Notes under the pieces: generated by a model
The model's database searches: none
The model's input: the letters and a program-made list of their open reading frames with translations, nothing else
Told to the model about the DNA's origin: nothing
IMG/VR virus record: IMGVR_UViG_3300023174_000371
Location: 1-36,992 of that record
Source of the DNA: a virus
Reading direction: 5' to 3' (one strand)
Length of the DNA stretch: 36,992 bases
Program-made: the position numbers and the translations under genes
In this document: piece by piece, positions 3,473-27,120 of the stretch
Position numbering within the stretch: the first letter of the stretch is position 1
How the letters are laid out: the number at the start of each line of letters is the position of its first letter

Positions 3473-3714
3473 ATCAAATACTTGATGATAGACAAGAGCA
3501 ATACGGAAGCGCTAATGATAATTTCACTCGTATTGGCGTGGGTTGGGGAGCAATACTTAATACTGGCGCTATTCCTCCTCACATTGTTGCTTTAATGTAT
3601 GACTTTGGCAAGACAATAAGGTGCGTAGTTAATCCTGAACACAATGATAGTTGGTTTGACAAGCAGGGATATACCCAACTTGGTCATAAGATTGTAGGCA
3701 AGCATGAGTCTTGA
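3457..3714 (+). CDS. DUF6378-like protein
   Basis: This 85-residue protein begins at GTG and matches the DUF6378 pattern of phages: LDDRQEQYGS near the N-terminus, a helix with ALMYDFGKTIRCV in the middle, and HNDSWFDKQGYTQLGHKI at the end. The biochemical role of the family is not known to me; such genes are common in early regions. It overlaps both neighbours, which supports co-translation with the phosphoesterase that follows. Confidence 0.7.
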   Translation: MSKKLNQILDDRQEQYGSANDNFTRIGVGWGAILNTGAIPPHIVALMYDFGKTIRCVVNPEHNDSWFDKQGYTQLGHKIVGKHES

Positions 3715-4738
3715 AGAACAATTTAATGAAATGCCTGAAGGAATTGAAAGCAACGATGTTAAAGAATTGCGTCAGTTGGTTTTAAGATTACAAAAGCAAT
3801 TAAAAAAAGCAAAAGAGCGTACTGAAGAATTGGTTGAAACAACACATCAAGCCTCGTATGACGCAATGCTAACTTACGGATCTATCAAACCAATTCCACC
3901 TTTAGAGCCTGATAAAAGAAAAACAAAATCAGAGGTTGCTCTTTGGCACATGACGGATTGGCAAGGCGCAAAAAGAACTACTTCATACAACAGTGAAGTT
4001 ATGAGAAAACGCGTATTGGAGTTTGCTACAAAAGCAGTGCGCATTACTGATATTCAAAGAGCAGATCACCCAGTGCGAGAAGTTTTTATTTGTTTTGGCG
4101 GCGACATGGTTGAAGGTTTGTTCAATTTTCCTAGTCAGGCATTTGAAGTAGACAGCACATTGTTTGAGCAATATGTAAATGTTTCAAGATTGTGCGTTGA
4201 TGTTGTTCAATTCGCACTTGCTAATTATGAGAAAGTTACTGTTGTTGCGGAATGGGGCAATCACGGTCGTATTGGATCCAAGCGTGACAATGTTCCAAGA
4301 TCAGACAACTTTGATCGCATGTGCTATGAACTTGCTCGCCAATTGCTTCAAGGGGAGAAGCGATTGGTGTGGCAGGAGTGTCCTGAAGACATACAAAGAA
4401 TTGAAATTGGATCTTACAGAGCGTTGTTGATTCACGGTGATGAAGTAGGGCGTAATGGATTTGCTAGTCCAGGTGCTATTGTGCAACACGCAAACAAATG
4501 GAGATCAGGTTCTTATCCTTGGGAATTTAGAGATGTGTATATTGGGCATTATCATACTCATTGCGAATGGGCTATGGCGAATGGACAAGGATCTGTTTAT
4601 CAAACAGGATCTACTGAATCAGACAACCGCTACGCAGGAGTTATGCTTGCTTCTAGTGCAACACCTTCTCAAAGACTTCATTTTATTGATCCAGTAAAAG
4701 GCAGAGTAACTGCGGCGTATAAAGTGTGGCTTGACTAA
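3704..4738 (+). CDS. calcineurin-like metallophosphoesterase
   Basis: This 344-residue protein has a coiled-coil-like N-terminus (residues 17-48) and then the metal-binding motifs of the calcineurin-like phosphoesterase fold: HMTDWQG (82-88), GGDMVEG (132-138), GNHGR (185-189), IHGDE (243-247) and GHYHT (281-285). The first motif is DxQ where many members have DxH. The enzyme probably cuts a phosphodiester or phosphomonoester, perhaps of DNA or a nucleotide, but the substrate cannot be read from sequence. It overlaps DUF6378 by 11 nt. Confidence 0.82.
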   Translation: MSLEEQFNEMPEGIESNDVKELRQLVLRLQKQLKKAKERTEELVETTHQASYDAMLTYGSIKPIPPLEPDKRKTKSEVALWHMTDWQGAKRTTSYNSEVMRKRVLEFATKAVRITDIQRADHPVREVFICFGGDMVEGLFNFPSQAFEVDSTLFEQYVNVSRLCVDVVQFALANYEKVTVVAEWGNHGRIGSKRDNVPRSDNFDRMCYELARQLLQGEKRLVWQECPEDIQRIEIGSYRALLIHGDEVGRNGFASPGAIVQHANKWRSGSYPWEFRDVYIGHYHTHCEWAMANGQGSVYQTGSTESDNRYAGVMLASSATPSQRLHFIDPVKGRVTAAYKVWLD

Positions 4739-4761
4739 AACCAAAAAAAATTTGCGATTTA

Positions 4762-4868
4762 CTGGCGCGTCTTGACTAATCTAAACAGGATATGTGTTCA
4801 GTTTAATTTTTGCTAAAACACACTCAGATAGAATTTAGCCTAGATCCTGAAATTCAGGGTTAGAAAGG
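4762..4868 (+). promoter_or_regulatory. leader region with diverged repeat module and start hairpin
   Basis: The 135-nt gap before gene 4874 holds CTGGCGCGTCTTGAC (4762-4776) and AAACAGGAT. These resemble the CTGGCG...CAGGAAAG module before genes 10221 and 11798, but are more diverged. An inverted repeat TGTGTT/AACACA lies at 4793-4798 and 4817-4822, and a -10-like TAGAAT at 4829-4834. A hairpin at 4840-4850/4854-4863 (one bulge) is followed at once by GAAAGG (4863-4868) and the ATG. Promoter function is inferred. Confidence 0.5.
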
Positions 4869-4873
4869 CAAAC

Positions 4874-5335
4874 ATGGATAAAAAAGTGATATGGGTGAAC
4901 GGGCACACTACGCTCACTCTAAAGAATCGCAAGGTTGGGTCAAAGCAATTAACCAAAGAGCAGTATTTGATTGCCGCCAAAACAAGATCCAATTTTAGAA
5001 AATGGGTGTTTGCTCAGGGCAAGGGAAAACCATGCCCAGGCAAATCAACTAAGATCATTGGTGATATTGGTCTTAACTATCATGACGGCAAATGTTGCGA
5101 TGAAATGATGATATCGCCAGCAGTATCCTACGAAACAGTTAAAGAGTTTGTATTGAGCAATCTTTGTTCATTGGAGGAAATAGAAATACAGGCTGAACAT
5201 GCTTTCAGGTTGTATCAAAGGGTCAAGTCATTTGAAGTGCCGTATTCAAAAGACTACAACAAAGAGAAAACAGCGATATACAGGGGGCGCAGACAGGTGT
5301 GGTTGGATCTCCTCCACGCAAAGACCCAAGCGTAA
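4874..5335 (+). CDS. hypothetical protein
   Basis: This 153-residue protein is soluble and basic in its first half (many Lys in residues 12-60) and contains PCPG and KCCDEMM motifs with three cysteines near residues 53-77. The C-terminal half is helical and ends in YRGRRQVWLDLL. I do not recognise the family. It stands alone between a leader hairpin and a strong terminator, so it appears to be its own transcription unit. Independent control suggests an early host-takeover or regulatory protein, but this is only inference. Confidence 0.65.
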   Translation: MDKKVIWVNGHTTLTLKNRKVGSKQLTKEQYLIAAKTRSNFRKWVFAQGKGKPCPGKSTKIIGDIGLNYHDGKCCDEMMISPAVSYETVKEFVLSNLCSLEEIEIQAEHAFRLYQRVKSFEVPYSKDYNKEKTAIYRGRRQVWLDLLHAKTQA

Positions 5336-5341
5336 GGATCA

Positions 5342-5373
5342 AACCCGTAGGAGAGCCTTTCTACGGGTTTTTT
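5342..5373 (+). terminator. Rho-independent terminator
   Basis: A perfect 9-bp stem AACCCGTAG/CTACGGGTT (5342-5350 and 5361-5369) with a 10-nt loop runs into TTTTTT. It lies 6 nt after gene 4874. A second small hairpin, TGGGTT/AACCCA (5376-5381 and 5385-5390), may serve the converging minus-strand genes. Confidence 0.88.
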
Positions 5374-5379
5374 CTTGGG

Positions 5380-5466
5380 TTAAAAACCCAGCGCCTCAAC
5401 TTCGTCAATAGAATCGTCAATAGTTCTACTGTGTTGGCTGCCGCAAGATCCGCATTGGTAGCACAT
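5380..5466 (-). CDS. 28-residue CxxC micro-protein
   Basis: On the minus strand, the stop of the gene upstream and this ATG overlap as TAATG, the coupling seen throughout the genome. The 28-residue product begins MCYQCGSCGSQH and continues with an acidic helix (IDDSIDEVEALGF). Three Cys and a His in the first 12 residues suit a metal or thiol site. Tiny proteins beginning MCxxC are familiar in actinophages and their hosts. The stop lies inside the small hairpin at 5376-5390. Function unknown. Confidence 0.5.
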   Translation of the reverse strand: MCYQCGSCGSQHSRTIDDSIDEVEALGF

Positions 5467-5684
5467 TATTCGTCATCTTCGTATTCATCATAATCGTATT
5501 CATAAGCCCTAATATCGCAACCAGCGGTTTTAGCCATTGTCAAAGCCTGTACAAATACCTCATACGCACGATTGCCTAAATCAGTTAACTGGTCAGGGTA
5601 ATTTGCTTCATGTTCCACTTCAACATATAACTGATGAAGACTGATTACTACTCTACCTTTGGGTGGGTTTTGGGATTGGCTCAT
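5466..5684 (-). CDS. small acidic hypothetical protein, minus strand
   Basis: This 72-residue protein has an extended N-terminus and a helix (TDLGNRAYEVFVQALTMAKTAGCD), and ends in a Tyr/Asp/Glu run (AYEYDYDEYEDDE). It is one of only two minus-strand genes, lies between a terminator and a divergent promoter, and is coupled to the 28-residue gene after it. The ribosome site is poor (GAGGG almost touching the ATG). The highly acidic tail suggests a protein that binds a basic partner or mimics DNA; this is speculative. Confidence 0.55.
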   Translation of the reverse strand: MSQSQNPPKGRVVISLHQLYVEVEHEANYPDQLTDLGNRAYEVFVQALTMAKTAGCDIRAYEYDYDEYEDDE

Positions 5685-5724
5685 ACCCTCATTTTCTCAC
5701 CTTTGCTCAAAAAAAACACGCGAC

Positions 5725-5765
5725 TTGCCGAGCGAAATCCCCTACTTTGTAATCTTTTAGGGGAT
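5725..5765 (+). promoter_or_regulatory. promoter with palindromic operator over the -10
   Basis: TTGCCG (5725-5730), a 17-nt spacer and TGTAAT (5748-5753, one mismatch from TATAAT) form a good sigma-70-type promoter for the replication operon. An exact 8-bp inverted repeat, ATCCCCTA at 5737-5744 and TAGGGGAT at 5758-5765, is centred on the -10 box. That placement is typical of an operator for a dimeric repressor; it could also fold in RNA. Confidence 0.7.
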
Positions 5766-5779
5766 ACTAGACGGCAACA

Positions 5780-5810
5780 GGAGCAACCATGCTCCCCCAA
5801 CGAAAGAAGG
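5780..5810 (+). promoter_or_regulatory. leader hairpin before the replication operon
   Basis: GGAGCA (5780-5785) and TGCTCC (5790-5795) form a 6-bp stem with an ACCA loop, followed by AACGAAAGAAGG and the ATG at 5815. This hairpin-then-GAAAG order also occurs before genes 4874, 10221 and 11798 with unrelated stem sequences. Confidence 0.55.
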
Positions 5811-5814
5811 CAGT

Positions 5815-6378
5815 ATGGCTAAGTTTGACCTTAGTGACTATGAAACCGTAGAAGCCCGTCTGGCGCGGTTCTGGAAATCTAACCCTGAAGGCAGGATCTT
5901 GACGGAACTTGTTTTTCATGATGAACGCAGATTCATTGTCAAAGCGGAGATCCATTTTGATCGCAACGACATGACACCAGTGGCAACTGGATACGCTGAA
6001 GAAATAGTAGGTGCCTCACCAGTGAACAGAACTTCAGCGCTTGAAAATTGCGAAACGAGTGCAATTGGACGCGGATTAGCGAATTGTACATTTGCTTCAG
6101 CAGGTAAGCGACCAAGCAGAACTGAAATGGAAAAGGTTGAACGCTATCAGGCTGAACCTAGAAAAGCGCCAGTGTCAACCAAACGCGAATACACAGCAGA
6201 GGAAATTAAGGTTGCTGAAGATCTTATGACGCTGATTCCAACCATTGACGATTTAGAGCAATTGCGCAAACTTTGGGATACACATGGCGATATTAGAGAT
6301 TTACCTATCAATGGCACAACATTAAAAGATATATTCAATAAGCGTGCCACTGAAATATCAGAGAACAATCAAGCATGA
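5815..6378 (+). CDS. putative single-strand annealing protein (ERF-like), tentative
   Basis: In this 187-residue protein a conserved-looking core spans residues 20-100: VKAEIHFDRNDMTPVATGYAEE, then TSALENCETSAIGRGLANC. The last segment resembles the Ala/Ser-rich helix of ERF and Rad52-type annealing proteins, and proteins with this motif are frequent beside phage exonucleases. A helical C-terminal domain follows from about residue 125. A Cas4-like exonuclease is encoded 1.2 kb downstream, which would give an exonuclease-annealing pair. Family assignment is tentative. First gene of the replication operon. Confidence 0.55.
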   Translation: MAKFDLSDYETVEARLARFWKSNPEGRILTELVFHDERRFIVKAEIHFDRNDMTPVATGYAEEIVGASPVNRTSALENCETSAIGRGLANCTFASAGKRPSRTEMEKVERYQAEPRKAPVSTKREYTAEEIKVAEDLMTLIPTIDDLEQLRKLWDTHGDIRDLPINGTTLKDIFNKRATEISENNQA

Positions 6379-6860
6379 GTGGATACAAAAAACATTGGCA
6401 AAGCCTTCCTGTTTTGCCTTATGCTGGAACATCAGGTTGGTCAGGATCAGAAACGAGCAGAGAACGCGCTATTACGGCTGACCGCAGTGGTGAAACCAAA
6501 CTACGACAGAACCAAACTATCACGCATGTTAGACATCAAGGCATGCGCGGTTTAACTTGGTATGAATTGTCTGAAATTACTAATTGGCATCACGGCACTT
6601 CATCAGGCGCATTGTCGGTATTGAATAAAGCAGGCAGGCTTGTGCGCTTGAAAGAAAGGCGCAACAAATCATCTGTGTATGTGACCCCTGAGTTTGCTGG
6701 AGGTAGAGCAATTGCTGAACGCAAAAAAGGCAAATTGATACTTACAATGCAATTGTCGGCAGGCGTTCACATTGACGACATCAAGACAGATCTTAATTGT
6801 GAATCATTATTGAGATTAGAGGAAATGGGCTTAATTAAAGAATGGAGTTGGAGTGAGTAA
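6375..6860 (+). CDS. winged-helix DNA-binding protein
   Basis: This 161-residue protein has a low-complexity N-terminus of about 45 residues. A winged helix-turn-helix follows: GLTWYELSEITNWHHGTSSGALSVLNKAGRLVRL holds helices 2 and 3, and KERRNKSSVYVTPE forms the wing. This kind of protein is common in early regions of actinophages. DNA binding is well supported; whether it regulates transcription or helps replication is not visible. It overlaps the gene before it by 4 nt and the one after by 8 nt. Confidence 0.7.
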   Translation: MSGYKKHWQSLPVLPYAGTSGWSGSETSRERAITADRSGETKLRQNQTITHVRHQGMRGLTWYELSEITNWHHGTSSGALSVLNKAGRLVRLKERRNKSSVYVTPEFAGGRAIAERKKGKLILTMQLSAGVHIDDIKTDLNCESLLRLEEMGLIKEWSWSE

Positions 6861-7143
6861 AAATAAGAAGTTTGAACCAAGTATGGGTTGGATGGTTGCG
6901 GTTAATCACCAACAGGTGTCAATTACAAGGTTGGCGCAAGAATTGAACATTGACCCTATTGCATGCGGACAGGCATTAGAAAATGCTGGCTACCAATTAA
7001 TTCCTGACCCGTTTGATATTGCCAAAGACGCTTGGAAAGTGTTAGATGTAGAAAAGCGTAACAAATTAAGAGCAGTGCCAACAATGGCAGATATCGCTGA
7101 AAGCGTCACCGAGTTAGATGAGGAGGAAATGGCTAATGAATAA
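6853..7143 (+). CDS. hypothetical protein, possible helix-turn-helix
   Basis: This 96-residue protein starts at GTG with GGAG a few bases upstream. Residues 20-45 (VSITRLAQELNIDPIACGQALENAGY) look like a short helix-turn-helix. The C-terminus is acidic (VTELDEEEMANE). No family is recognised. The gene overlaps both neighbours and belongs to the replication operon. Confidence 0.6.
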   Translation: MSKNKKFEPSMGWMVAVNHQQVSITRLAQELNIDPIACGQALENAGYQLIPDPFDIAKDAWKVLDVEKRNKLRAVPTMADIAESVTELDEEEMANE

Positions 7144-7495
7144 TGTTGTCACTCCTCAGATGATTGAACAAAGGTTGCGCGATTTGTCGCGTGAAGTGGA
7201 TCAATCTCACAAGGATCTATCAGAGGCAGAGAATCAATACTTCACTGTTAAGGCAAAGTATGAATTGGCGCTCGCTCACGGCAGATTATCTTTAGCAGGC
7301 AAACAAGAAATGAAATTAACTGTTTCAGATAAAGCAGACATGGCACTTGTATCAGCAGAGGAATTGCACATGAAAATGGCAACGGCTGAAGCACTGGTGC
7401 GTGCGGCAAGAGCAAATGCTTCACGCATTAGAACTCAGGTTGATATTGCTAGATCAATTGGAACGTCAGTGCGCACCAGCATGGATATATCATGA
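7136..7495 (+). CDS. small helical protein of the recombination operon
   Basis: This 119-residue protein is nearly all helix with heptad-like spacing (IEQRLRDLSREVDQSHKDLSEAENQYFTVKAKYELALAHGRLSL). ATG 7136 is preferred because GGAGG at 7122-7126 is 9 nt away; an in-frame ATG at 7118 would put that site inside the gene. Similar coiled-coil proteins lie just before the Cas4-like exonuclease in related phages, so it may be a partner of that nuclease. Function unknown. Confidence 0.68.
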   Translation: MNNVVTPQMIEQRLRDLSREVDQSHKDLSEAENQYFTVKAKYELALAHGRLSLAGKQEMKLTVSDKADMALVSAEELHMKMATAEALVRAARANASRIRTQVDIARSIGTSVRTSMDIS

Positions 7496-7626
7496 TAGGA
7501 ATACGCAATCCTTTTTATCGCAAAAAAGCAAAAGTTATTTGGGTCGCATGTGATCATTGCGCTACACAATTTCCTGTGTTTGTTGAAAACATACGAGTTA
7601 CAAATTATTGTATGAGGCATAAATGA
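7492..7626 (+). CDS. 44-residue zinc-ribbon-like protein
   Basis: The frame starts by ATGA overlap with the previous gene and ends in ATGA overlap with the exonuclease, so it fills the gap exactly. The product is basic and carries CDHC (C20, C23) and a second pair in NYCMRH (C40, H43), a likely zinc site. It is probably a small nucleic-acid-binding or regulatory protein. The exact tiling between two coupled genes supports it being real. Confidence 0.65.
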   Translation: MIGIRNPFYRKKAKVIWVACDHCATQFPVFVENIRVTNYCMRHK

Positions 7627-8294
7627 TTGATCTTAACGATATGTTGGTCAAATCATTAAAAGCATTTGACGCTAACAGGTCAAGATCGCAACAGGTTGAA
7701 GTTGGACCAAGCAGTATTGGTGGTTGTCGCAGGCAGGTTTGGCATGAGTTAAAACAAACACCTGAAACAAATCACAACACTGAATCACTGGCGGCAATAC
7801 TTGGAACATTTATTCACTCAGGCATTGAGAAGGCTATAAGGCGTGAAGATCCATTTGGCGACAATTTCATCATTGAAAAAGAAGTCCAGCATGAAGGTCT
7901 AAAAGGTCATGTTGATTTATTTATTAAAGATTTGGGATTGGTTGTTGATTGGAAAACTACCAAAGTCAAGTCACTGCGCTATTTCCCGTCAGAGCAACAA
8001 AGGTGGCAGGTTCAGATCTACGGCTACTTACTGGAGAAAAATGGATACAAGGTCAATGAAGTAGCACTGGTGGCTATACCGCGTGACGGTGAAATGGCTG
8101 ATATTAGAGTTCACAAAGAAATCTACGACTTGCCAACGGCAGAGCGCGGTATTCAGTGGTTGAAGGAGATAGAATCAATTGTTGCTAATGATCAACCTGC
8201 CCCAGCGCCTGAAGAAAGCAAGTTCTTCTGCGTCAGGTATTGTTCATATTATGATCCGACAGGAGAAATTGGTTGCCCTTCTACGCAGAAGTAA
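7623..8294 (+). CDS. Cas4-like PD-(D/E)XK exonuclease with Fe-S cluster
   Basis: This 223-residue protein shows the Cas4/RecB-type nuclease motifs in order: a first Cys in GGCRRQVW (C35), H65, GHVDLF (D98), VVDWKTTK (D109, K111) and a QIYGY motif near 131. Three more cysteines follow at 203, 207 and 218, so four in total can hold a 4Fe-4S cluster. The protein should degrade a DNA strand for recombination and replication, probably with the annealing protein at 5815. No CRISPR array or other cas gene is visible, so a phage recombination role is preferred. Confidence 0.85.
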   Translation: MIDLNDMLVKSLKAFDANRSRSQQVEVGPSSIGGCRRQVWHELKQTPETNHNTESLAAILGTFIHSGIEKAIRREDPFGDNFIIEKEVQHEGLKGHVDLFIKDLGLVVDWKTTKVKSLRYFPSEQQRWQVQIYGYLLEKNGYKVNEVALVAIPRDGEMADIRVHKEIYDLPTAERGIQWLKEIESIVANDQPAPAPEESKFFCVRYCSYYDPTGEIGCPSTQK

Positions 8295-8647
8295 ATTGGG
8301 ATCAGGCTGAATGCAGAGGTGTGTACACAGATCTGTTTTACAGGGTTGAGGAGGAAAGGAATGTTAATGCCTATCCTTACATTGACGCTGTTAGATCCAT
8401 TTGCGCAAAATGTCCAATTTGGGAGGATTGCCTCACATACGCCATCCGTCATGAGCAATACGGCGTATGGGGAGGTCTTACCTCAATGGAGAGAAAATCA
8501 TTTGAACAACCTGACAAATACCCTGCTCAAAGATCAAGAGCATTGTTGGCGTTAGAGCAGTACGGCATTACATTGGATCAACTGAAGGAGTGTTATGAGC
8601 ATACGATTGATGTCGGAGGTGTGGCAGACCAAATTACCAACAATTGA
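8273..8647 (+). CDS. WhiB-family Fe-S transcription regulator
   Basis: This 124-residue protein has the four cysteines of the WhiB family (C14, then CAKCPIWEDC with C44, C47, C53) and the GVWGGLT turn (64-70). These bind a 4Fe-4S cluster and contact the host sigma factor. The family is restricted to actinobacteria and their phages, which fixes the host phylum. The TTG start at 8273 has AGGAG 7 nt upstream and overlaps the exonuclease by 22 nt. In phage TM4 a WhiB protein interferes with host WhiB2 and cell division; a similar role here is inferred. Confidence 0.9.
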   Translation: MPFYAEVNWDQAECRGVYTDLFYRVEEERNVNAYPYIDAVRSICAKCPIWEDCLTYAIRHEQYGVWGGLTSMERKSFEQPDKYPAQRSRALLALEQYGITLDQLKECYEHTIDVGGVADQITNN

Positions 8648-9407
8648 AAAAATGGTGTTGTTGATAATTGCTGATCATGCTAACGATGAAGGCACTGAGG
8701 CTTGGCCGTCACAAGCAACAATGGCAAAGAAGGCTAGTTTGAGCATTAGAACTATCCAACGCGCTGTCAATTCGCTCGTAAAAACCAAGTTTCTGCTTGT
8801 CGAAAAACATGGTGGAGGATCTGCTAATTGTAGAGATGATCGCAGACCCCACAAATATACGATTAACCTGAAAACATTACGGGGCGACCAAGCGACTACC
8901 CGTATATTACGGGGCGACGCAGACAACCTTGACGGGGCGACTTTCACGCCTGATACGGGGCGACTTTCACGACCTAAGAACCTTCCTTTAGAACCTCCCT
9001 TAGAAACACCCTTCGATTTGTTTTGGAAGGCTTATCCAATCAAGGTAGGAAAGCAAGCCGCATTGAAGGCATGGGACAAGGCAGTCAATTCAGGAGTTGA
9101 TCCTAAAGTTCTAATTAGCGGTGCGAATCAGTATGCCTCAGATCCTAACAGGCACCCTTCGTATACTGCTCATGCCTCAACATGGCTAAACGCTGGCAGG
9201 TGGGCAGATGAACCATTACCTCCAAGAGAGTTATCAGTTGAGGAAAAGAAGGCTAAAGAAGTTGAGTGGGCTCGTATCAAGTCTGAGCGCGAAAGAGAGA
9301 AAAGCAGGCTTGCTCAGATTGAAGATGAGAAAGCAAGGCAGAGGGCAGTGCCAGCACCTCAGCACATAAAAGAAATGCTAATTAAGACTATTGGCAAATC
9401 ATTGTGA
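8595..9407 (+). CDS. replication initiator (winged-helix, DnaD/O-like)
   Basis: This 270-residue protein has an N-terminal winged helix (about residues 15-75; AWPSQATMAKKASLSIRTIQRAVNSL is the helix-turn-helix). A variable linker spans 95-135. A C-terminal replication domain begins FDLFWKAYPIKVGKQAALKAW, contains ASTWLNAGRWADE, and is followed by a charged helix. This is the layout of phage replication organisers that bind the origin and load the helicase. The linker DNA contains four iteron-like repeats, as in lambda O. No helicase or polymerase gene is visible, so the host replisome is probably used. Confidence 0.78.
   Translation: MSIRLMSEVWQTKLPTIEKMVLLIIADHANDEGTEAWPSQATMAKKASLSIRTIQRAVNSLVKTKFLLVEKHGGGSANCRDDRRPHKYTINLKTLRGDQATTRILRGDADNLDGATFTPDTGRLSRPKNLPLEPPLETPFDLFWKAYPIKVGKQAALKAWDKAVNSGVDPKVLISGANQYASDPNRHPSYTAHASTWLNAGRWADEPLPPRELSVEEKKAKEVEWARIKSEREREKSRLAQIEDEKARQRAVPAPQHIKEMLIKTIGKSL
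8876..8964 (+). repeat. iteron-like repeats, candidate replication origin
   Basis: Four exact copies of ACGGGGCGAC lie at 8879-8888, 8909-8918, 8932-8941 and 8955-8964 (spacings 30, 23 and 23). Copies 1 and 2 share ATT before them; copies 3 and 4 share TTTCACG after them. The copies fall in three reading frames of the gene, so the conservation is at the DNA level. Their place inside the initiator gene suggests the origin. Confidence 0.72.
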
Positions 9408-9487
9408 GTGAGTCAGGTTTTTCTGAAAATTGGCTTGATGATGAAGATTTAAGAATTGTGTCGCATTTGTCCGAAAAGGTGGCATAA
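9404..9487 (+). CDS. 27-residue acidic micro-ORF
   Basis: A GTG overlapping the replication gene's stop opens a 27-residue frame (NWLDDEDLRIVSHLSEKVA in its core) that reads like an acidic helix. It ends 13 nt before the repeated promoter motif at 9500. No ribosome site stands out, so translation would depend on coupling. It may be a real small gene or a chance open frame. Confidence 0.35.
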   Translation: MSESGFSENWLDDEDLRIVSHLSEKVA

Positions 9488-9497
9488 ATCACTTAAT

Positions 9498-9527
9498 TAG
9501 ATTACACTTATTGTAATCATTACACTT
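9498..9527 (+). promoter_or_regulatory. promoter/operator with direct and inverted repeats
   Basis: ATTACACTT occurs twice, at 9501-9509 and 9519-9527, exactly 18 bp apart. GATTACA (9500-9506) and TGTAATC (9512-9518) form an inverted repeat, and TGTAAT-C-ATTACA (9512-9524) a second one. TGTAAT here is the same -10-like hexamer as at 5748, and the ATG lies 24 nt beyond it after GGAGG. This looks like a regulated promoter for genes 9541-10103. Confidence 0.6.
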
Positions 9528-9540
9528 GATTGGAGGTGAA

Positions 9541-9732
9541 ATGAATAAAAGCATATACACCCAGCCTGAAAGATTACGAATAGGTGATCGTATTCTAATT
9601 AGAGATCAAGAATATACATTGAAATATGTAGACACACCCGACAAATTGGGAACATGTGATATGTATGTAATTGATTCACAAGGACACGATCAACATGAAA
9701 TTGTTACAGGACTGGTTAGAATAGTTATGTGA
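9541..9732 (+). CDS. small hypothetical protein
   Basis: This 63-residue protein is beta-rich (RLRIGDRILIRDQEYTLKYV resembles a small barrel or SH3-like strand pair). The start is ATG 9541; an in-frame TTG at 9526 is rejected because GGAGG (9532-9536) serves the ATG. The stop overlaps the RusA start, so it probably shares a transcript with the resolvase. Function unknown. Confidence 0.6.
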   Translation: MNKSIYTQPERLRIGDRILIRDQEYTLKYVDTPDKLGTCDMYVIDSQGHDQHEIVTGLVRIVM

Positions 9733-10103
9733 TTCAATTCAGAGTAGACGGACAGCCGATTCCACAAGGATCTATGAAAGTCATAAATGGACATATAATC
9801 CATTCGCAAGGTTCTGCGCTTGCCGCATGGCGATCAGCAGTAGCACTTGCCGCTAAACATGCTGGGGCAAAGCCTTCCTTAAATCCAATTGCAATAACAA
9901 TGGTGTTTGTGTTTGCAAGACCAAGAACAGTAACAAGAGCAGAACCAACAGTGCCGCCTGACTTAGATAAATTAATACGCGCAGTGTTAGACGGGCTGAC
10001 CGCAGTAGTGTATAAAGATGACGCACAAGTAACTGAAATTAAAGCGGTAAAAATATACGGAGAATCGCCATGTGTTGAAATACAAATGGCTGAAAAGTTG
10101 TAA
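9729..10103 (+). CDS. rusA: RusA-type Holliday junction resolvase
   Basis: This 124-residue protein contains the RusA motifs: QGSMKV near the N-terminus (residues 13-18) and PPDLDKLIRAVLDGL (76-90) with the acidic pair D78 and D80. YKDDAQV (95-101) supplies further acidic residues. The enzyme cuts branched DNA during recombination and before packaging. It starts at GTG by overlap with the preceding stop and is the last gene of its unit, followed by the repeat module at 10104. Confidence 0.88.
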   Translation: MIQFRVDGQPIPQGSMKVINGHIIHSQGSALAAWRSAVALAAKHAGAKPSLNPIAITMVFVFARPRTVTRAEPTVPPDLDKLIRAVLDGLTAVVYKDDAQVTEIKAVKIYGESPCVEIQMAEKL

Positions 10104-10213
10104 AAAAAGTTATCAAAAAGTTATCAAAATATGTTGGCGCGCCTCTAGATTTTTTACAAACTATCAGGAAAGATTTAGGTTATTGAGATCGCCCGATCTC
10201 AAAAACCGAAAGG
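10104..10213 (+). promoter_or_regulatory. repeated promoter/leader module, copy 1
   Basis: In order: two tandem 11-bp repeats of AAAAAGTTATC (10104-10125), TTGGCGCG (10134-10141), CTAGATTTTT around the -10-like TAGATT (10146-10151), CAGGAAAGATTTAGGTTAT (10165-10183), a perfect 9-bp hairpin TTGAGATCG/CGATCTCAA (10183-10191 and 10194-10202) and GAAAGG (10208-10213). The same order recurs at 11674. It probably drives genes 10221-11672. Confidence 0.65.
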
Positions 10214-10220
10214 CACTAAA

Positions 10221-10394
10221 GTGGATAAGACCCAAAAAAACCTTGTAAATACAAGAGTTTTAGCGTTTGTAGATCGTCTAGTGTTTTGCTACAACTGCCA
10301 AAGCAAATTTTGGACAGCAGTCAAAACAAATGAAACAAAACAAATGAGAATCAGATTTTGCTCTAATTGCAACAGTGAGCAGGTAACCAAATAA
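10221..10394 (+). CDS. 57-residue zinc-ribbon-like protein
   Basis: The frame starts at GTG 10221, with GAAAGG 7 nt upstream, and ends in TAATG overlap with the next gene. The product carries CYNC and CSNC pairs about 25 residues apart, a classic zinc ribbon, and is basic between them. It is the first gene behind the repeat module. It could bind nucleic acid or the host RNA polymerase; this is inference. An in-frame reading from ATT 10182, where copy 2 has the leader ATG, would add 13 residues. Confidence 0.65.
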   Translation: MDKTQKNLVNTRVLAFVDRLVFCYNCQSKFWTAVKTNETKQMRIRFCSNCNSEQVTK

Positions 10395-10666
10395 TGACTA
10401 CAAAAATTCAAGCAGGCAATCAACCAGCATTTGTTGATCCAAAAGGAAACAATATTGACGCCAACTACTGCGTTCAATGCGGTCGCAAGTGCGGATCAAA
10501 CCCTTGGTTTATTGAGGTTATCAAAGGTGGCGAAATCCGCCAACAAGACGGCATTAACTACAACGCTTCACAAGACGCTGGATATATGGGCTGGTGGGCA
10601 GTTGGCAACGAATGCGCAAAACAATTTGAATCCAATGTGTTATTCAAAATGGAGGTAAGCAAATAA
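10394..10666 (+). CDS. small Cys-containing hypothetical protein
   Basis: This 90-residue protein has YCVQCGRKCG near residue 25 and a single later Cys (NECAK, near 75), a possible zinc knuckle. The middle contains GYMGWWAVGNECAKQF, which suggests a compact folded domain. It overlaps its neighbours as TAATG on both sides. No family is recognised. It belongs to the 10221-11672 group behind the first repeat module. Confidence 0.62.
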   Translation: MTTKIQAGNQPAFVDPKGNNIDANYCVQCGRKCGSNPWFIEVIKGGEIRQQDGINYNASQDAGYMGWWAVGNECAKQFESNVLFKMEVSK

Positions 10667-10908
10667 TGACAATCACAATCGTATACAAAGCAGATGTTTC
10701 AGGAACAGATGAGGCACATGCCGCATGGTGCACTGATATAACTAAAAAGTTGAACACACCAGGTTGGCACATGTATGGCAATTTTTCAACAATTGAACAA
10801 GCCGCAAGAGATTTGTTTGGAGACATGCTTGAAGAAGGCAGCATGGATCTTGAAGAGGCAGTTGATAGTATCAAAGTTCTTCCATGCGTAAACAAGGAGG
10901 TGAAATAA
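10666..10908 (+). CDS. small acidic hypothetical protein
   Basis: This 80-residue protein is acidic in its C-terminal half (FGDMLEEGSMDLEEAVDSIK) and mixed alpha/beta by pattern. It has two isolated Cys (22 and 74) and no clear metal site. It is coupled by TAATG to the genes on either side. Function unknown. Confidence 0.6.
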   Translation: MTITIVYKADVSGTDEAHAAWCTDITKKLNTPGWHMYGNFSTIEQAARDLFGDMLEEGSMDLEEAVDSIKVLPCVNKEVK

Positions 10909-11381
10909 TGACTTCAATAACAATCAATGACACAACAGGTCGCACAATTCCTGCGCCTGAAGGTAATTTCAACCCTGAGTGGTGGGGCAAGTATTTACAC
11001 ATAGCAGACAAAGACATCATGGTTGGCGATCCAGCAACATACTCAGTTGGATCTGATTCATACTCAGCAGTGGTCACTGAAGTAGTGCGCTTTAAAGAAG
11101 GTAAGCGCGCTGGTCAAGTCAAATATATCAAGTTAGATGGTCGCGACAAAATGTTGGCTTATCCAATTCTTTGCTCACAACACAAAACACCCAAAATCAA
11201 GTCAGACAAAACTGAAACAATTGAAACACCTTGGGGCGGCACATTTATTCACAAAGATCCAGTTTGCAATGATTGCTGGTTACAACATCATGGCGCACTT
11301 AGATTTCAAGAATCAGCAGATTCATACTGGGCGAGCGCAAGAGTGGGCTCACAAAACCCTTATCAAGATCCACACTTCTAA
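10908..11381 (+). CDS. hypothetical protein with Cys/His cluster
   Basis: The product is 157 residues from ATG 10908. An in-frame ATG at 10884 is less likely because AGGAGG lies between the two, 8 nt before 10908, and 10908 overlaps the previous stop as TAATG. The N-terminal half is beta-rich (PATYSVGSDSYSAVVTEVVRF, like a small barrel). The C-terminal half has C and H residues (CSQH, then PVCNDCWLQHH) that could bind zinc. Possible nucleic-acid-binding protein; family unknown. Confidence 0.62.
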   Translation: MTSITINDTTGRTIPAPEGNFNPEWWGKYLHIADKDIMVGDPATYSVGSDSYSAVVTEVVRFKEGKRAGQVKYIKLDGRDKMLAYPILCSQHKTPKIKSDKTETIETPWGGTFIHKDPVCNDCWLQHHGALRFQESADSYWASARVGSQNPYQDPHF

Positions 11382-11399
11382 AGCAGGAAGCGAAGGCGC

Positions 11400-11672
11400 A
11401 TGTTAATTTCGGAAGAAGACTTCGAACTACTTCATGATGTATCAATGGCATGGGGCGAACAATGGCATGCGCAACAACGCAGATTTTCAAGCAAACACCC
11501 AATTCACTACAACCATTTGTTTGCGTATTGGTTCAGTAACTACGCTTCATATTTATTGGCACGACAATTCTTAATTAACATTGGCACTGATTATCAAGAA
11601 TTGATTGACGAAGCAAGTGGCGATTATGTTTTGGTTAGTAATTATGTATCTATAACTTGGAGAAAACATTGA
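11400..11672 (+). CDS. hypothetical protein
   Basis: This 90-residue protein is rich in aromatic residues and helical (EDFELLHDVSMAWGEQWHAQQRRF, then HLFAYWFSNYASYLLARQFLINIG). The aromatic stretch is only partly hydrophobic, so a membrane helix is uncertain. It is last in its group, and its stop lies 1 nt before the tandem repeats of the second module. Function unknown. Confidence 0.58.
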   Translation: MLISEEDFELLHDVSMAWGEQWHAQQRRFSSKHPIHYNHLFAYWFSNYASYLLARQFLINIGTDYQELIDEASGDYVLVSNYVSITWRKH

Positions 11673-11673
11673 A

Positions 11674-11785
11674 AAAAAGTTATCAAAAAGTTATTTTATT
11701 TGCTGGCGGGTCGCTAGATTTTTAGTAAATAATCAGGAAAGATTTAGGTTATGAAGTTAGAGATACTAACTTCAAAAACGAAAGG
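11674..11785 (+). promoter_or_regulatory. repeated promoter/leader module, copy 2
   Basis: Two tandem AAAAAGTTAT[CT] repeats (11674-11694) are followed by TGCTGGCGGG (11701-11710), TAGATT (11715-11720) and CAGGAAAGATTTAGGTTAT (11734-11752). A 9-bp hairpin TGAAGTTAG/CTAACTTCA (11752-11760 and 11766-11774) and GAAAGG (11780-11785) complete it. The stem sequence differs from copy 1 but pairs fully. It probably drives genes from 11798. Confidence 0.65.
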
Positions 11786-11801
11786 CACGGATCTAAAATG
11801 A
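11751..11801 (+). CDS. 16-residue leader peptide
   Basis: ATG 11751 follows AGGAAAG by 9 nt and opens MKLEILTSKTKGTDLK, whose stop TGA overlaps the next ATG as ATGA. The hairpin lies inside this frame, so a ribosome translating the leader would melt it and reach the next start. This suggests a coupling or attenuation device. Copy 1 has ATT in place of this ATG. Confidence 0.45.
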   Translation: MKLEILTSKTKGTDLK

Positions 11802-12172
11802 GCACACACGCACTCATCGGAGTAAAAACACCAACAGGCTACAAAGCCCGTTTTGTTCATTATGACGGCTACACAGAGGCAATGCTTCCAGCAATTAAGC
11901 GTTGTATTCAAAATCATTGGGTAGCAGGCAACACATACCTTGATGCAAGAAACTACATGTTAAGTAATCACTGGAGTTCATTTAACATCTCAGAGCATTC
12001 AGTTGCTCAATCTCATACTCACGATCAGGTTTGGTATACCGAGAATGACGGTATTGACGCACAATACTTGTACATTCTAGATGAGAAAGAAGTGACTGCT
12101 TATATCAACCTACACGGCAAATGGATCGCAATAGATCCAACCAAAACAATTGAAACAAAGATATACGCATAA
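11798..12172 (+). CDS. conserved-type phage protein of unknown function
   Basis: This 124-residue protein begins MSTHALIGVKTPTGYKARFVHYDGY, a start I have seen in actinophage proteins without known function. It is alpha/beta in pattern, rich in His and Tyr, with no clear catalytic motif. It is the first full gene behind the second repeat module and overlaps the leader-peptide stop. Small Zn-type genes follow it. Confidence 0.7.
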   Translation: MSTHALIGVKTPTGYKARFVHYDGYTEAMLPAIKRCIQNHWVAGNTYLDARNYMLSNHWSSFNISEHSVAQSHTHDQVWYTENDGIDAQYLYILDEKEVTAYINLHGKWIAIDPTKTIETKIYA

Positions 12173-12345
12173 TGAAAACATACAACTGCTTGAAGTGCCA
12201 AACAGCAAGTTCTGAGGCATACGACAATCAATGGTTTGCTAACAAATACGGCAAAGTTTGCCTATGGTGTGCAGACATATCTATTGATACAACACGCTAC
12301 GCAGGTATAACACGCATGGCTGACGCAGAAATGGGTGATTTATGA
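12172..12345 (+). CDS. 57-residue double-CxxC protein
   Basis: The frame begins by TAATG overlap and ends by ATGA overlap with the next gene. CLKC (C6, C9) and CLWC (C30, C33) form a likely zinc ribbon. The C-terminal part is helical (AGITRMADAEMGDL). Too small to assign; it tiles exactly between coupled genes, which supports it. Confidence 0.62.
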   Translation: MKTYNCLKCQTASSEAYDNQWFANKYGKVCLWCADISIDTTRYAGITRMADAEMGDL

Positions 12346-12500
12346 AAACATTTGTAATCACTGAAGATCAAATGGAAATACTGCTAGACACATTCATCAA
12401 GTTTGGCGAAGCCATAGCCAGTAAATCAGGTGTAACACCTGCGTTGGCTCAACAAATGGAAAAATCCTTCAATGTATGCGAAACAGTGGTCAAACAATGA
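12342..12500 (+). CDS. 52-residue helical protein
   Basis: This short helical protein (MEILLDTFIKFGEAIASKSG is an amphipathic helix) has one Cys. It is coupled by ATGA to genes on both sides. No signal peptide, membrane span or known motif is visible. Function unknown. Confidence 0.55.
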   Translation: MKTFVITEDQMEILLDTFIKFGEAIASKSGVTPALAQQMEKSFNVCETVVKQ

Positions 12501-12963: not shown

Positions 12964-13078
12964 ATACAAACCAGTAGATATAACAAAAGAAGTTTGCACA
13001 GTCTGCCAAGAAAAAGCAACCAACATTTTTTACGGCAAATTTTTATGCGCAGATCATTACGAACTCAGTAGGCACTAG
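12956..13078 (+). CDS. 40-residue zinc-finger-like protein
   Basis: The product has CTVC (C14, C17) and later CADHY (C31, H34), a compact zinc-finger pattern. It overlaps the previous gene by 8 nt. Its stop TAG is the first part of the -10-like TAGATT of the third repeat module. One of several similar tiny Cys proteins in this region. Confidence 0.55.
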   Translation: MSEYKPVDITKEVCTVCQEKATNIFYGKFLCADHYELSRH

Positions 13079-13111
13079 ATTTTTTTAAGAAAATCAGGAA
13101 GGATTTAGATT
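13073..13111 (+). promoter_or_regulatory. repeated promoter/leader module, short copy 3
   Basis: CACTAGATTTTTTT with TAGATT at 13076-13081 is followed by ATCAGGAAGGATTTAGATT and the ATG of gene 13112. Upstream tandem repeats and the hairpin are absent. Here the CAGGAAGG box itself is the ribosome site (9 nt before the ATG). Confidence 0.55.
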
Positions 13112-13567
13112 ATGCAGACTTTTCTACCATACGCGCATTTCAAACACACTGCTAGCGTGCTTGACGATAAACGATTAGGCAAACAGCGTGTTGAGGCTTG
13201 GCAGATCCTTAGAGCATTACGAGGAGAAACCAAAGGTTGGGTCAATCACCCAGCGACAGTAATGTGGCAAGGGCATGAACAGACACTAATTGAGTACGGC
13301 TTGGAGATCTGCTTGGAGTGGAAGCAAAGAGGCTTCGAAGACACGCTCTACGCCCGATTTGAGGCTGAATTCAATGGCTGGTCTGACGCTAGACCTTGGT
13401 GGATTGGTTATGAGCCATTACACATTAGTCATAGATCTAATCTCAGACGCAAAGATCCAATTTACTACGGCGCTTTCACTGAACCAATTGACCTACCTTA
13501 TATTTGGTGCAAGCCTGACGGAACTTTTAAGGTAGGAGAAAAACCAGAGGTGGCACTTGTCAATTAG
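13112..13567 (+). CDS. pyrimidine-dimer DNA glycosylase-like, MSMEG_6728 family
   Basis: This 151-residue protein matches the actinobacterial MSMEG_6728 family related to T4 endonuclease V: MQTFLPYAHF start, SVLDDKRLGKQRVEAWQILRAL (15-37), HPATVMWQGHE (46-56) and SHRSNLRRKDP (105-115). Such enzymes excise UV-made pyrimidine dimers in DNA. It is directly preceded by the short repeat module, so it may be separately controlled. In a sunlit freshwater setting, UV repair is a plausible benefit. It may also meet the modified base made by the 16479-19438 genes. Confidence 0.8.
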   Translation: MQTFLPYAHFKHTASVLDDKRLGKQRVEAWQILRALRGETKGWVNHPATVMWQGHEQTLIEYGLEICLEWKQRGFEDTLYARFEAEFNGWSDARPWWIGYEPLHISHRSNLRRKDPIYYGAFTEPIDLPYIWCKPDGTFKVGEKPEVALVN

Positions 13568-13765: not shown

Positions 13766-14038
13766 ATGACTTCAATAGTCAAAGAAGTAGATCAGTCTGA
13801 CTATCAAGGTTGGACTAATCGTCAAACTTGGAGTGTTGCGTTAAACATATCCAATGATTACAACCTATATATGGCGGCAGTAGATTATGTTAGAAAAAAC
13901 ATGAAAAGCAAGAATTTGTATAGAGGGTTTGTTCAGGCATACGGATTAACTGGCATGAAAACATCAGAAGGTTATGTGTATCTGAGCAACAAACTTAATT
14001 ACACTGAACTTAACCGATTTATGAAAGGTTTAATATGA
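13766..14038 (+). CDS. DUF7249-like phage protein
   Basis: This 90-residue protein's signature GWTNRQTWSVALNISND matches the WxNxxTWxVALxxxN core of the DUF7249 type of small phage protein. Start 13766 is chosen because GGAGG lies 5 nt upstream; ATG 13748 is also in frame and overlaps the previous stop. It is helical in its second half and ends ATGA on the next gene. Its role is not known. Confidence 0.62.
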   Translation: MTSIVKEVDQSDYQGWTNRQTWSVALNISNDYNLYMAAVDYVRKNMKSKNLYRGFVQAYGLTGMKTSEGYVYLSNKLNYTELNRFMKGLI

Positions 14039-27101: not shown

Positions 27102-27120
27102 CCTACTGAAAGGAACCATA

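Follow-up and report, generated by a model that had tools for sequence, protein, structure and literature searches.

Covarying hairpins in the operon leaders of an uncultured actinophage are candidate guards of the mRNA 5′ end

The window analysed here, the 36,992 bases of IMG/VR virus record IMGVR_UViG_3300023174_000371, is the genome of an uncultured actinophage in which four genes, starting at 4874, 5815, 10221 and 11798, are each preceded by a stem-loop followed by a Shine-Dalgarno (SD) site, GAAAGG or GAAAGAAGG. Our comparisons support the hairpin as a real RNA structure in which pairing is selected and letters drift, because relatives keep it while its letters change. We consider it probable that the four stem-loops are 5′-terminal mRNA hairpins that shield phage mRNA from 5′-end-dependent decay.

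A sequence-only reading of the window had reported a stem-loop directly before GAAAGG or a similar site at these four genes, and all four were found in place, on the plus strand. The 4874 leader carries GATCCTGA-AAT-TCAGGGTT, with two G.U pairs, at 4843..4861 and GAAAGG at 4863..4868; the 5815 leader carries GGAGCA-ACCA-TGCTCC at 5780..5795 and GAAAGAAGG at 5802..5810; the leader of 10221, which has a GTG start, carries TTGAGATC-GCCC-GATCTCAA, covarying in relatives, at 10183..10202 and GAAAGG at 10208..10213; and the 11798 leader carries TGAAGTTAG-AGATA-CTAACTTCA at 11752..11774 and GAAAGG at 11780..11785. The stems are those reported except at 10221, where the 9 bp claimed would leave a 2-nt loop and the stem is instead one of 8 bp with a GCCC loop. 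All four stop 1–6 nt 5′ of the SD and have stem energies of −7.7 to −8.9 kcal/mol. When the 50 nt before each SD were dinucleotide-shuffled 2000 times, an equally strong hairpin ending at most 10 nt from the SD arose with p = 0.0075, 0.0070, 0.0015 and 0.0020 for 4874, 5815, 10221 and 11798, respectively (combined 3e-7). At three other tested GAAAGG sites the hairpin was at chance level, namely at 14023 (p 0.72) and 32772 (p 0.48), both at the ends of coding frames, and at 27108 (p 0.15), inside a 19-nt gap. The hairpin-bearing gaps (4739-4873, 5685-5814, 10104-10220 and 11673-11797) look like the leaders of four operons; of the gaps that measure 100 nt or more, are uncut by the window edge and lead into a gene on the same strand, 4/4 have a hairpin. 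The 10221 and 11798 leaders are duplicates, with 82% identity across 79 nt upstream. Changed sequence with kept pairing, which had been claimed across the four stems, therefore holds within the window for this pair, the only homologous one among the four; the other covariation evidence comes from relatives.

Relatives were taken from metagenomic IMG/VR contigs with simple gene calls, as homologues of the 5815 protein, of the exonuclease encoded at 3704 (80 kept of 504) and of RusA (29). Among 44 non-redundant 5815 leaders, picked by gene homology only, 43 have a hairpin at the homologous place as judged by eye. Their stems include GGAGCA/TGCTCC, GGGGCA/TGCCCC, GGTTCC/GGAACC, GGATTC/GAATCC, GGATTTC/GGAATCC, GAGCAG/CTGCTC and GGGC/GCCC, and the flanks, ACAG on one side and CC(C/T)AAC with the SD on the other, stay constant while the stem varies. 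The position after RusA, that of the window's 10221 leader, shows by reading the same promoter-hairpin-SD order in about 29 of 31 distinct relatives, and this leader is kept though the downstream gene varies from phage to phage. The 4874 leader was found, covarying, in five further relatives (L005, L141, L151, L155 and L165); in L155 the right arm has become GATCTA, which pairs with TAGATC. Genes and leaders appear to be shuffled between phages, because in L007 (at 12818) and L174 a homologue of the 11798 protein lies directly after RusA behind a different hairpin (GCGC/GCGC). A scan of all viral contigs for the flanks alone returned mostly chance matches and a stricter one three stretches, and therefore exact flanks do not define the hairpin family; a flank pattern of this kind was absent from a metagenome-assembled genome (MAG) that carries a relative.

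The earlier proposal that the fold rather than the bases is kept, and that covariation should be visible over related phages, is supported by these varied stems and by three comparisons, whose permutation values overstate independence, as leaders within a sub-group share descent. RNAalifold on a MAFFT alignment of the 5815 leaders gave no pairs; C runs had misaligned the right stem arms, and for this reason we relied on an arm-swap test and on the cleaner post-RusA alignment. In the 5815 leaders the pairing score was 13.0 for native arms vs 7.6 for swapped ones (z = 7.9; 0/5000 permutations); a larger arm-swap, of 31 hand-picked stems (z = 11.6), is not treated as independent. Within the TTATTG sub-group, whose 17 post-RusA-type sequences were chosen by their 5′ flank and include the window's 10221 and 11798 leaders, 82.7% of cells were paired vs at most 55.6% with the partners slid, both sides had changed in 5/8 pairs, and double-change cells numbered 11 vs 3.5 in shuffles (0/500). 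Finally, 13 well-aligned post-RusA leaders held 10 G.U vs 1 A.C cells (p = 0.012, the cells not being fully independent), the excess expected of an RNA helix in the mRNA sense, whereas a DNA dyad would give no such strand bias.

The distance of the hairpins from predicted sigma-70-type promoters is constrained. Across 129 non-redundant intergenic hairpin leaders, a −10 hexamer stands 6–11 nt 5′ of the stem in 42, vs 21 of 153 operon-internal starts (p = 1.3e-4), and no excess was seen at other distances before the stem. From this position of the −10 we infer that the stem starts 1–4 nt from the mRNA 5′ end, as we do all transcription starts and the stabilisation itself. On the plus strand of the window, the predicted −10 of the 4874 leader is TAGAAT at 4829..4834 (TAAAAT at the same distance in relatives), which would put the transcription start (+1) at about A4842, and that of the 5815 leader is GATACT at 5763..5768 (CATAAT, CATACT or GATATT at the same distance in relatives), with a likely +1 at about A5776. 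The predicted promoter of 10221 (10146..10175), obtained by alignment with L141, L155, L165 and L171, consists of a −35-like TAGATT, 18 nt and a −10 AAGATT, with +1 expected at A10182; its duplicate before 11798 (11715..11744) would start transcription at A11751. In L007 and L175 the promoter reads TTGACA-17-TATGTT. In leaders of the post-RusA type the −10 is followed by six nt as a rule, then by an A and the stem, which would place +1 at the A and the stem from +2; for the 5815 type, about four nt would be expected between the predicted +1 and the stem.

Guarding of the mRNA 5′ end would then proceed as follows. A sigma-70-type promoter, with a TANNNT-like −10 and in some relatives a clear TTGACA −35, would initiate 1–4 nt before the stem, and the RNA would open with a stem of 4–9 bp and a loop of 3–8 nt, followed by an A/C-rich spacer of mostly 5–8 nt, the SD and the start codon. 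Such an RNA, its 5′ end held next to a helix, would be a poor substrate for 5′-pyrophosphate removal, for 5′-monophosphate-dependent RNase E and for the 5′-exonuclease RNase J; the phage operon mRNA would live longer, and selection on pairing alone would let the letters drift. The SD lies outside the stem, the gap between them being 1–12 nt and mostly 5–8 nt in 37 leaders, and genes for both RNase J and RNase E/G are present in an actinobacterial MAG containing a relative. A helix 1–4 nt from the 5′ end is a known stabiliser design, which hinders RppH and blocks 5′-sensing by RNase E, while targets of RNase J, too, are stabilised by 5′ hairpins (PMC3997798 and its references); mRNAs stabilised in this way are known in both E. 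coli and B. subtilis (PMC3997798). Of the three roles that the sequence-only reading had suggested, mRNA protection, an open ribosome site and phage protein binding, the first fits best, given a −10 at 6–11 nt before the stem and a stem that we place at the 5′ end or no more than about 4 nt from it.

Several observations weigh against 5′-end protection. The hairpin is dispensable in L017, a close relative and the sole 5815 leader of the 44 without it. The window holds a third copy of the promoter block (13076..13112, plus strand), with the same spacing as those of 10221 and 11798 and no hairpin, which runs directly into the ATG of gene 13112, a pyrimidine-dimer glycosylase (PF03013); its mRNA is predicted to be leaderless, with the A of that codon as +1. 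The window promoters have weak −35 elements, and the 4 unpaired nt at the predicted 5815 5′ end are near the limit for protection in E. coli. When all intergenic leaders are pooled, hairpins exceed shuffles only about two-fold, operon-internal starts give a similar hairpin/shuffle ratio, and specificity emerges only once promoter position or gene homology is taken into account.

A role in translation, in which the hairpin would be a spacer or a standby element and would leave the ribosome site unpaired or position the 30S subunit, is a reading we regard as unlikely. The hairpin-SD distance in the 37 leaders is in its favour, as is the conservation of the SD motif and spacer, whose letters rank among the best kept in the leaders. 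The earlier suggestion that the ribosome site is held open found no support in folding: over the same 37 leaders, predicted SD accessibility was 0.613 for native sequences vs 0.610 after shuffling of the hairpin letters (p = 0.83). The distance between promoter and stem is constrained too, which a purely translational role would not need.

Binding by a protein, the last of the suggested roles, divides in two. The free variation of stem and loop letters makes sequence-specific binding unlikely. Recognition of shape alone by a phage or host protein, for antitermination loading, translational control or localisation, seems to us rather improbable: the hairpin does recur at several operons of one genome, and one sub-group of leaders repeatedly uses a GAAA (GNRA) tetraloop, but across the family no loop or bulge letters are conserved and the loops, of 3–8 nt, have many sequences. 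Known phage RNA sites for proteins, such as nut, put and MS2-type sites, retain specific letters, which also weighs against it. An extension that we hold to be similarly doubtful is a phage-wide marking system, in which most or all operon-leading transcripts of this actinophage group would carry a structure-only 5′ hairpin, either so that phage mRNA outlives host mRNA in a cell where 5′-end-dependent RNases degrade RNA or to be read by a shape-specific phage protein. If true, it would suggest control of mRNA lifetime as a general phage strategy against the host decay machinery.

We judge it very improbable that the inverted repeats function as DNA, whether as operators or as hairpins comparable to N4 virion RNA polymerase promoters, with an incidental RNA fold. 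In favour of this, the repeats are located at promoters, beside GGCGCGCC-like and TGTAATC blocks, but operators keep their letters, and the hairpins, with their 10:1 ratio of G.U over A.C, do not. The same genomes offer a contrast in the 9541 leader (TGTAACCATTACA...TGTAATGATTACA), where the letters TGTAACCATTACACTTATTGTAATGATTACA around the −10 are kept in about 30 relatives. There, at 9487-9540, two TGTAAY-ATTACA dyads surround the −10 TACACT, probably forming an operator for a phage regulator, and upstream of 5815 there is a half site, TGTAATCT. The repeats in the leaders, moreover, are found downstream of the −10, and those of N4 upstream. Chance hairpins, for which it can be said that short stems are common and the pooled enrichment modest, are refuted, as far as sequence can do so, by the arm-swap and column covariation tests, with the window shuffle test also against them, and we give them next to no weight.

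Other elements accompany these promoters. A GGCGCGCC-like block, possibly an activator site, precedes each of the four leaders and recurs in many relatives; the window copies, at about 4762-4772, 5721-5733, 10135-10146 and 11702-11713, read CTGGCGCGTC, CGCGACTTGCCG, TTGGCGCGCC and CTGGCGGGTCG. Repeated AAAAAGTTATC units precede two of the promoters (about 10108-10127 and 11676-11695), and GTTATA/GTTATC units resembling them occur in L005, L151 and L165. AGGAAAGATTTAGG upstream of the hairpins was considered as an SD, but the −10/+1 spacing is fixed across relatives, which points rather to promoter sequence. A frame of 16 codons that opens at ATG 11751 and has a stop overlapping the 11798 start was set aside as a leader peptide, since the predicted +1 falls on the A of this ATG and the 10221 leader has no matching short ATG frame.

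We assign the window to an uncultured actinophage because it encodes a WhiB factor (8273-8647), regarded as a hallmark of actinophages (PMC10202952), and because one relative of its exonuclease gene was found on a contig of an Actinomycetota MAG. An actinobacterial host would follow, and the phage is probably one of freshwater. Further genes encode a Cas4/PD-(D/E)XK-like nuclease (7623), the RusA resolvase (9729), SSB (15569), a ParB-like protein (16479) and the large terminase (19804). A Tet/JBP-type 2-oxoglutarate oxygenase (PF12851, 17107-18015) and a P-loop nucleotide kinase 3 (PF18751, 18911-19438) may form a DNA base modification set. Megablast of 4000-12500 against named phages gave no match; protein searches returned no isolated close relative, the best being that of the exonuclease, at 46% over most of its length, and no relatives turned up when IMG/VR was searched with the 11798 protein. 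A hairpin with a T run (AAACCCGTAGGAGAGCCTTTCTACGGGTTTTTT, 5336-5390), placed between gene 4874 and the convergent gene 5466-5684, resembles an intrinsic terminator.

The leader hairpins themselves differ from terminators and attenuators, their stems being followed, by reading, by a CCCAAC- or AAAAC-like spacer and SD and by no T run. No Rfam family reached the gathering score on the leaders, and a literature search on phage 5′ hairpins, with most subscription journals outside its reach, found no published description of the family. Among known systems, the T7 gene 10 leader is a phage mRNA start with the order predicted here, short hairpin, A-rich spacer and strong SD; its initial letters are fixed by the promoter of T7's own RNA polymerase, whereas here the promoters are of the host sigma-70 type and the stems vary freely. 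The extended start-associated sequences (ESAS) of Cluster K mycobacteriophages are likewise multi-copy actinophage elements at a subset of genes, with an inverted repeat just upstream of a start-associated sequence (PMC3203893). Their arms keep a 17-bp consensus next to GGGATAGGAGCCC, with little support for RNA pairing according to the authors (PMC3203893), whereas here the letters differ between sites, pairing is kept and GGGATAGGAGCCC is, by reading, absent from the four window leaders. Stabilisers of the B. subtilis aprE type (PMC3997798) also protect a long downstream RNA by a 5′ hairpin and ribosome site, but are cellular, belong to single genes and form no phage family. Similar in design are the stabilising stem-loops of ompA and papA, as described in Emory, Bouvet and Belasco 1992 and Bricker and Belasco 1999 (cited in PMC3997798), which lie at or a few nt from the 5′ end, the position predicted for the present hairpins, and share with them an unpaired SD downstream and a premium on structure over letters; those are single enterobacterial host genes with measured half-lives, whereas the present hairpins belong to several operons of many uncultured actinophages. 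By analogy the leader hairpins would work like the ompA/T7 type. To these systems they add a large natural set, dozens of leaders with hundreds more relatives, that couples sigma-70-type promoters to 5′ hairpins keeping their fold while varying their letters, and that provides data on what a 5′-end guard requires in Actinobacteria, where RNase E and RNase J can occur together, as well as a practical aid for locating operon starts in uncultured actinophages.

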